Positions 11,253 through 13,425 of a stretch of 55,476 nt of DNA are shown one piece after another. Position numbers and translations under genes: made by a program. The DNA comes from Candidatus Poribacteria bacterium. GTDB taxonomy: Bacteria; Poribacteria; WGA-4E; WGA-3G. Location: the NCBI GenBank assembly GCA_021295715.1, contig JAGWBV010000050.1, positions 1 through 55,476 on the forward strand, given 5' to 3'. Within the stretch, counting starts at the first letter, position 1; each line of letters starts with the position of its first letter. The notes beneath the pieces were generated by a model. That model was not told the origin of the DNA. It saw only the letters and a program-made list of their open reading frames with translations, and did no database searches.

Positions 11253-12059
11253 ATGGAAAAATTGGGTATTATTGCAGGCACAGGTGAACTACCAGTGCTA
11301 TTAGCACGTGCCGCTGTTGCCCATGGACGACAACCCGTTATTATCCAAATCACCAAGTCTGATGCGCAACGCTTTGCTGGAATCGAATGCGAACTTCATA
11401 CGTATGGCGTGGGCCAGATTCAAAAGATCGCCCGAACGCTTCTCAACTCAGGCGTGAAAGAGGTAGTAGTCATCGGGAAAGTCGAAAAAAACATCCTCCT
11501 TCGACCCTTTCAAATTGATACGACCACCCTTAAAATTCTCGTACAGCACCGACGCGAAAAACCTTCCGTAATCGTCAACGCAGCACTTAACCACCTCGAA
11601 TCCGCTGGACTTACCATCCTCACGCAAGATCAGTACCTCCAACACCTTCTTCCACAACCGAGCGTTTTAACAACTCGACAACCGACCGCGAGCCAATGGA
11701 CAGATATTGAACTCGGTATCAATATCGCTCGCCAGATAGCAAACATGGATATCGGGCAAACGGTTGTGGTTAAAAATCAGATTGTCCTTGCTATGGAAGC
11801 TATTGAGGGGACAGACGCTACCATCCAGAGGGGTGGAAACTTGGGAAAGCAGGGAATCGTTGTTGCGAAAGCCGCCGCCGAGAACCACGATTTTCGTATT
11901 GATGTACCGACGGTGGGGATGCAAACACTTAAGGTGCTGCATCAAGTTAAAGCGAGTGTTTTAGCAGTGGAAGCGCGGCGAACTTTTGTGATGGATGCTG
12001 ATATGCTGATTCAACAAGCAGACCGGTGGAAGATCGCAATCATTGCGGTAGAGTCATAA
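11253..12059 (+). CDS. lpxI: UDP-2,3-diacylglucosamine pyrophosphatase LpxI (DUF1009)
   Basis: 268 residues. LpxI hydrolyses UDP-2,3-diacylglucosamine to lipid X and UMP, replacing LpxH in many bacteria. The N-terminus LGIIAGTGELPVLLARAA and the C-terminal block GQTVVVKNQIVLAMEAIEGTD, RGGNLGKQGIVVAKAA, DFRIDVPTVGMQTL, AVEARRTFVMD are characteristic of the DUF1009 family. Third lipid A gene in a row. Its ribosome site (TAAGGA, 11236-11241) and the A-rich start context belong to the end of the MITE-like element upstream. Confidence 0.93.
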   Translation: MEKLGIIAGTGELPVLLARAAVAHGRQPVIIQITKSDAQRFAGIECELHTYGVGQIQKIARTLLNSGVKEVVVIGKVEKNILLRPFQIDTTTLKILVQHRREKPSVIVNAALNHLESAGLTILTQDQYLQHLLPQPSVLTTRQPTASQWTDIELGINIARQIANMDIGQTVVVKNQIVLAMEAIEGTDATIQRGGNLGKQGIVVAKAAAENHDFRIDVPTVGMQTLKVLHQVKASVLAVEARRTFVMDADMLIQQADRWKIAIIAVES

Positions 12060-12137: not shown

Positions 12138-12371
12138 TTATGCCGCCGCGTCCATTGCGGTTGTAATCTGCTCTGTCGTCGGAAATTGTCCGGTTTCTAA
12201 CTTAGAATAGAGTAGTGTTCCGTTCACAGAGACTTCAAAAGCTCCACCACTACCAGGGATCAGATCGACTGTTTTAATCGCCGCACCATATTTCTGCTTC
12301 AAGGCATCTGCCAAACTGGCTGCCCGTGGCTGGTAGTTTCAGGCGGTGCAGTATTCAATTCTCACTTCCAT
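12138..12371 (-). CDS. SelW-like (Rdx family) selenoprotein with in-frame UGA
   Basis: Reading from ATG 12371 gives MEVRIEYCTA-UGA-NYQPRAAS and then an open frame to TAA at 12138, 77 codons. The part after the UGA (ADALKQKYG, GSGGAFEVSVNGTLLYSKLETGQFP) is the thioredoxin-like Rdx/SelT-SelW-SelH family, thought to act in thiol redox. The UGA (12339-12341) falls exactly on the second redox Cys of the family CxxC motif, giving C8-x-x-U11. AGGAGGG stands nine bases before the ATG, and a hairpin with a G at the start of its loop lies 15-36 bases after the UGA, as bacterial SECIS elements do. Many genes here use TGA as a true stop, so a genome-wide recoding is unlikely. No sel machinery genes are in this window. 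A simple nonsense pseudogene is the alternative, but the motif position argues against it. Confidence 0.88.
12303..12324 (-). promoter_or_regulatory. candidate bacterial SECIS hairpin
   Basis: In the selenoprotein mRNA, GCCA-GUU-UGGC forms a perfect 4-bp apical stem with a loop beginning with G, extended by GGCA/UGCC with a three-base bulge. It lies 15 to 36 bases after the UGA; the loop is about 23 bases downstream. These are the usual position and loop features for SelB recognition. The apical loop is small, so this is a candidate only. Confidence 0.55.
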
Positions 12372-12483
12372 GGTATTATCCCTCCTCATTAATTCTGAGA
12401 TTGCCTATCACGATGGATTCAATTGTCTATTTTAAAATTTTACAACAAATACGGGAAAATTGCAAGTTTTTTCGTTTCTTTAC

Positions 12484-12624: not shown

Positions 12625-13425
12625 ATGAACAGGTCTATCCAATTTCTGAACAAGTCTCTATCTTTATCTATCTGCGTTCACTTGATAGGTGTTGCAATTG
12701 CAGCACTATCTATCATCGGCACAGTAGATAGACATGGCGATGCAATTGTCGCTGAATTCGTCTCGTTCCCAGAGACAAAACCTATGCTTGAACCACGTCG
12801 GAAACTCAAAGTGCCAACATTAACACAGATAGATTTCATTCGTTCACAGCCACAGCGTATCCAAACGATTTCAGAAGTCGCCCACACACCACAAAGCCAG
12901 ACACAACTCGTTGTTGATACGCTCCCAGTTTCGACTGTTCATCAGACAACACCGATAGAAATTGGAATAGACGGTGTGAAAACGCTTCAGGGTAGTTTAT
13001 CTCTTCGGGCTCCGGATCGTGGTTCACAGTCGATCCGTCTGACCTCCAAACAGATACCACGTCCAGAGTGGACATTGACACCAACCGTCATTGCGAGTGC
13101 TGAAGTCTCCGAACTCCCATCAGTTCCAGCACTGCGGAACGAACCGACACAAGATGCCCGGTTTTTTCGTAAAGTGGACCCTATATATCCCGAATCTGCT
13201 CGCCTTTCCCACAAGGAGGGACTCGTTGTGCTTGAAGCGACAATCGGTACAGATGGTATAGCGAGAAACATCAAAGTTATCAAGGTGATCGAGGTTAGTG
13301 GGTTAGGCTGTGAAGAAGCGGCAATTACGGCACTCAAAGCGTCCCGATTCGTGCCAGCGAAACAGGGCAAAGAGGTTGTCAGTCAGCGTCTCCGTATTCC
13401 GTACCGTTTTCAGTTTAAAAGTTAG
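12625..13425 (+). CDS. TonB-like energy-transducing protein
   Basis: 266 residues. One N-terminal membrane span (about 13-33, SLSICVHLIGVAIAALSIIG), a long periplasmic linker with Pro and Thr, and a C-terminal TonB domain (about 175-266) with YPESARLSHKEGLVVLEATI, a typical alternating strand pattern and ALKASRFVPAKQGKEVV. TonB proteins couple inner-membrane proton motive force (ExbBD) to outer-membrane transporters. No exbB/exbD or receptor gene adjoins it, so the partner is unknown. The linker lacks the classical Pro-Lys repeats. Confidence 0.85.
   Translation: MNRSIQFLNKSLSLSICVHLIGVAIAALSIIGTVDRHGDAIVAEFVSFPETKPMLEPRRKLKVPTLTQIDFIRSQPQRIQTISEVAHTPQSQTQLVVDTLPVSTVHQTTPIEIGIDGVKTLQGSLSLRAPDRGSQSIRLTSKQIPRPEWTLTPTVIASAEVSELPSVPALRNEPTQDARFFRKVDPIYPESARLSHKEGLVVLEATIGTDGIARNIKVIKVIEVSGLGCEEAAITALKASRFVPAKQGKEVVSQRLRIPYRFQFKS

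Follow-up and report, generated by a model that had tools for sequence, protein, structure and literature searches.

A SelW-like gene with an in-frame UGA codon and a SECIS hairpin in Candidatus Poribacteria

One gene in the window, the whole 55,476-nucleotide stretch of Candidatus Poribacteria DNA analysed here, is very probably a monocistronic selenoprotein gene of the Rdx/SelW family, with a UGA at codon 11 that is read as selenocysteine (Sec) by means of a 3' hairpin. An ordinary annotation would overlook this gene, the internal UGA being taken as a "stop". Under the established bacterial mechanism, SelB-GTP carrying Sec-tRNA-Sec would bind the hairpin that directly follows UGA-11 in the mRNA, with its AGUUU loop ~21 nt downstream; UGA-11 would then be read as Sec and the full 77-residue protein would be made. 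Without selenium, translation of rdx would end after 10 residues.

The rdx gene and its product

The coding sequence occupies positions 12138..12371 of the minus strand and encodes a 77-residue protein with Sec at residue 11 when TGA is translated as U (MEVRIEYCTAUNYQPRAASLADALKQKYGAAIKTVDLIPGSGGAFEVSVNGTLLYSKLETGQFPTTEQITTAMDAAA*; one TGA). The in-frame UGA, the putative Sec codon, lies at 12339..12341 on the same strand and forms part of a C8-x-x-U11 redox motif. An earlier note had proposed a 77-residue Rdx/SelW protein here, provided that the UGA is read through, and profile searches bear this out. The product matches Pfam Rdx (PF10262) over residues 2-72 with E=1.9e-25 and 89.3 bits (cutoff 22.6), NCBIfam NF041051 (SelTWH_Campy) over its full length with 91.9 bits (cutoff 88), and TIGR02174 (CXXU_selWTH) with 77.8 bits (cutoff 34.2). 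The good ribosome site that had also been claimed is present as the Shine-Dalgarno sequence GAGGAGGG (12380..12387, minus strand), 8 nt upstream of the ATG, and a GGAGG-type site precedes the rdx genes of nearly all relatives.

The gene is flanked by two plus-strand genes, lpxI (with LpxI domains, ending at 12059) and a TonB-C gene starting at 12625, and the order lpxA-lpxI-rdx-tonB is kept in most members of the genus. Past the rdx stop, at 12091-12058 on the minus strand, the sequence GGAGG...CCTCC followed by a T-rich run overlaps the end of lpxI and, judged by eye, may be a terminator; it was not reported by the hairpin scan, which has a loop limit of 8 nt.

The predicted structure of the rdx product (mean pLDDT 95.3) has a thioredoxin-like fold, in which the C8-T-A-U11 motif follows the first beta strand (residues 2-8). 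Foldseek comparison gave a TM of ~0.9 to 2fa8, 2ojl and 2p0g, an E of 4e-8 to SelW-related structures and a TM of 0.71 to mouse SelW (2npb). The residue aligned with the UGA is Cys in 2fa8 and in human 2ljk and, because both carry Cys there, the UGA is assigned to the second active-site position of the motif, as the earlier note had placed it. The product, a small protein, is most likely a thiol/selenol oxidoreductase in which Sec would be the attacking nucleophile and the Cys8-Sec11 pair would form a reversible selenenylsulfide. We infer the insertion of Sec, this redox reaction and its partners; the redox role is suggested by the fold and the motif.

A survey of UGA read-through across the window yielded 38 frames with a single TGA, five of them mostly outside ORFs of annotated size. 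A recognisable protein is present in one of these five, rdx, the other four having been judged by eye only, which agrees with the earlier claim that no other frame in the window uses UGA as a sense codon. If UGA were generally read as Trp or Cys, through a reassigned code or a suppressor, the rdx frame would be open as well. However, rdx is the only frame in the window that needs UGA as sense (with the same four candidates assessed by eye), the UGA falls on the active-site chalcogen position, the SECIS covaries, and a UCA anticodon sits in a Sec-type tRNA adjoining selB. General reassignment was rejected on the conservation of the codon, and its probability is next to nil.

Conservation of the UGA codon and covariation of the hairpin

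An Rdx gene was found, in a single copy each, in 78 of the 98 genomes searched, a set comprising the window's own genome and mostly close relatives. Exactly one in-frame TGA is present in every one of the 78 genes; in all 70 loci that were read out it occupies the CxxU position, and the frame beyond it is complete. Named GTDB genomes were scanned with a closer sequence set, a 17-sequence alignment being too diverse, and this yielded 80 loci, all 80 with TGA at the same codon. Fifty of these belong to Candidatus Poribacteria, and the others include Binatia, Planctomycetota, Bacillus, Neomarinimicrobiota, Acidobacteriota and Chloroflexota. Cys, which had been expected at U11 in homologues, occurs in distant ones (rhizobial proteins and 2fa8), whereas the close homologues have UGA. 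As judged from the alignments, the placement of the UGA at the second active-site Cys together with a TGA in every close relative examined is beyond chance.

The reading frame is under selection. The dN/dS of rdx against eight relatives is 0.04-0.11, and purifying selection extends downstream of the UGA. Sister homologues likewise have open, selected frames with TGA at the same codon, and not the decayed frames that the earlier note had named as evidence against a selenoprotein. A lone TGA that differs by one base from the Cys codons TGC and TGT might be a nonsense mutation in a pseudogene or a miscalled Cys codon. The same TGA is nevertheless found in 78/78 Rdx genomes and in 80/80 named loci that were assembled independently, some of them on single-contig chromosomes. 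These counts, with the dN/dS values, refute a pseudogene or a sequencing error. With the UGA conserved, the frame selected and the gene order shared by most members of the genus, neither a nonsense mutation nor a sequencing error can account for the data, and any residual probability is negligible.

The core of the bacterial SECIS hairpin lies at 12308..12322 (minus strand), with a GCC/GGC stem plus flanking pairs and the loop AGUUU (12313-12317), which starts ~21 nt past the UGA. A probable outer stem, GGGCA/UGCCU (12302..12325, minus strand), lengthens the hairpin in this genus; it is suggested by the minimum free energy (MFE) fold and by partial pair support. Across 48 distinct sequences, 28 double-change cells were counted in the stem, compared with 7.9 +/- 2.1 in shuffles, and the covariation score was 0.389, compared with 0.179 in shuffles and at most 0.149 in slid controls. 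Pairing-preserving changes on both strands were observed at all five stem pairs in the same 48 sequences. The candidate SECIS is backed by this covariation and not by MFE alone: the fold energy of the single sequence is no better than that of shuffles (z -0.25; MFE of 48 nt). Published limits for bacterial SECIS elements are a loop of 3-9 nt, an upper stem of 4-16 bp, a G in loop positions 1-2, a UGA spacing of 16-37 nt and an MFE <= -7.5 (PMC13188914); the window hairpin, as GCCA-GUU-UGGC with 22 nt spacing and -11.6 kcal/mol over a 48-nt stretch, falls within them.

The RNA signal is also visible in codon and residue choice. In Poribacteria, the codons under the loop are nearly fixed (Ser19 is AGT in 63/63 and Leu20 is TTG in 59/61), while adjacent synonymous sites vary. 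The AGT-TTG element is absent from two rhizobial Cys homologues. In eight sequences the change A18V converts a stem C to U, and the facing base pairs with it in 8/8, being A in five (A21T, giving a U-A pair) and G in three (a U-G wobble). Because A18V comes with a paired facing base, including A21T, the protein sequence yields in order to preserve RNA pairing. The loop is AGUUU in most Poribacteria and in Binatia, and GGUCU in Planctomycetota and some others. More distant hairpins share the design with other stems, as in Cytobacillus spongiae (CCGCG-AGUUU-CGCGG) and Thermomicrobium (CCACC-CGUGC-GGUGG). In the sequences compared, the rdx UGA and its RNA signal are conserved throughout the phylum Poribacteria.

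Selenocysteine machinery and the truncated tRNA-Sec

The genome assembly (5.14 Mb, 175 contigs) contains selB as an open, full-length frame (C54:29721-31616, 349.6 bits) and selD (C29:59245-60168, 359.5 bits). The selD gene is itself a UGA-containing selenoprotein gene, with the UGA at the GxxU position (VKCAGUASKLAP). The presence of both genes supports the proposal that this organism decodes Sec and carries a SelW-like selenoprotein. A separate frame for a SelB-like or EF-Tu-like GTPase, split into two parts and containing an in-frame TGA, was seen at C60:27804-28924 and is perhaps a broken translation-factor gene.

Of the four genes for which the earlier note had suggested a genome-wide search, selB and selD are present, the tRNA-Sec is there in 3'-truncated form, and selA was not found in the 5.14 Mb assembly. 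Two weak 'selA' matches (47.8 and 25.3 bits) were discounted as paralogous PLP enzymes, since in relatives the same low-scoring hits occur next to a 600-bit selA. In 68 of the 83 genomes searched selA scores above cutoff, mostly at ~600 bits, with a complete or nearly complete gene. When a relative's selA locus was used as a probe, its flanks mapped to contig ends, the end of C18 (56805) and the start of C150 (base 1); the locus thus falls in an assembly gap, which probably explains why selA is absent from the assembly.

The sole tRNA-Sec gene of the genome (C54:31679-31754, UCA anticodon) lies directly behind selB. Its 5' ~75 nt are identical to the intact tRNA-Sec of relatives, and the last ~20 nt, comprising the 3' strands of the T-arm and of the acceptor stem, are missing. 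Where intact copies end in GACTCCCACCCTCTCCCGCCA, this one joins the region upstream of lipA at GGTGGGTTCG, with no Ns at the junction. A direct search of the genome revealed neither a second copy nor a separate 3' half. Because of the truncation, an Rfam gathering-level scan of the tRNA locus, which also covered the window, gave no matches; the truncation presumably also explains why ARAGORN missed the tRNA-Sec. Of 83 genomes of relatives, 72 have a match to the tRNA-Sec model that exceeds the Rfam cutoff. Neither selB nor tRNA-Sec is therefore missing in the sense that the earlier note would have counted against Sec decoding: selB is there, and the tRNA-Sec, truncated here, is intact in nearly all relatives.

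As assembled, with no selA and a truncated tRNA-Sec, the genome would be unable to produce Sec-tRNA. The truncation is likely an assembly misjoin. Contigs break at the tRNA-Sec in the relative MAGs G002 (twice) and G062, the G025 contig ends 78 bp past selB, and that of G033 ends inside selB. Of 26 tRNA-Sec copies fetched, 15 share an identical 94-nt sequence, and the ends at tRNA-Sec or selB in several Poribacteria MAGs are probably due to this identity among co-occurring species. An assembly fault is the likelier reading because other MAGs break at the same point and the 94-nt tRNA-Sec is a shared repeat of the sort that confuses metagenome assembly. A real truncation has a slim chance of being correct; the lineage would then be losing Sec decoding while retaining an intact UGA-bearing rdx and selD, or would read their UGA codons by means of an atypical tRNA put together from separate parts.

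A recent loss of Sec decoding would involve a genuine deletion running from the tRNA-Sec into the spacer in front of lipA, together with the disappearance of selA, leaving UGA-11 as an unreadable stop and rdx and selD as fresh relics. The failure to find selA in 5.14 Mb fits such a history, as does a single 3'-truncated tRNA-Sec whose junction is free of Ns and whose missing 3' half turns up nowhere else in the genome. However, the selA locus coincides exactly with a contig gap, the tRNA-Sec locus is a breakpoint of assembly (G002, G062, with G025 and G033 ending nearby), as would fit the 94-nt sequence identical among copies, and selB, selD and rdx with its SECIS remain intact, with an rdx dN/dS of ~0.04. 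We regard a recent loss as very unlikely, and a functional Sec-decoding gene as the preferred explanation.

Relatives of the gene and its significance

Selenoproteins of the family to which rdx belongs were already known to be common in marine bacteria. SelW-like proteins form the most widespread marine selenoprotein family, and their Sec form is commoner than the Cys form, with 427 Sec and 56 Cys sequences in GOS (PMC1088965, PMC2398784). The SelW-like selenoproteins of the Sargasso Sea and GOS metagenomes share with rdx the CxxU motif and a bacterial SECIS right after the UGA (PMC1088965, PMC2398784); they come from unassigned environmental reads, whereas rdx is placed in Poribacteria genomes with the order lpxA-lpxI-rdx-tonB in most of the genus. 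The Sargasso study noted a glutathione interaction for SelW-like proteins and called their function unclear (PMC1088965).

Other relatives differ in other respects. The SelW-related Atu0228 of Agrobacterium (2fa8) has the same fold (TM ~0.9) and ~35% identity, with Cys in place of Sec. Mammalian SELENOW (mouse, 2npb) has family, CxxU motif and fold (TM 0.71) in common with rdx, but its eukaryotic SECIS is in the 3' UTR, whereas that of rdx is inside the coding region. NF041051, which describes a SelT/SelW/SelH family (seleno)protein and matches over its full length, comes from a different phylum.

A plasmid of the cultured sponge isolate Cytobacillus spongiae (NZ_CP089998.1:370596-370928) carries a Sec-type rdx with a perfect CCGCG-AGUUU-CGCGG hairpin, at a place for which the incomplete gene table of PLSDB lists no feature. 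In Thermomicrobium roseum (NC_011961.1:408113-408451), the annotated Rdx (CDS 408227-408409) starts downstream of the UGA, and because its start lies past that codon, the annotation drops both the Sec and the CxxU motif.

Among the papers searched, none mentions both 'selenoprotein' and 'Poribacteria'. SelA and SelB are enriched in sponge symbionts (PMC5649159); the poribacterial SelW agrees with that enrichment and supplies one product for the machinery. Poribacteria, an uncultured phylum of sponge symbionts, carry the selenocysteine trait, and their UGA-encoded SelW is virtually invariant; the gene in the window illustrates how such genes are lost in annotation. The same element is carried by Cytobacillus spongiae, a cultured Bacillaceae isolate from a sponge, and by Thermomicrobium roseum, both of which are experimentally tractable.
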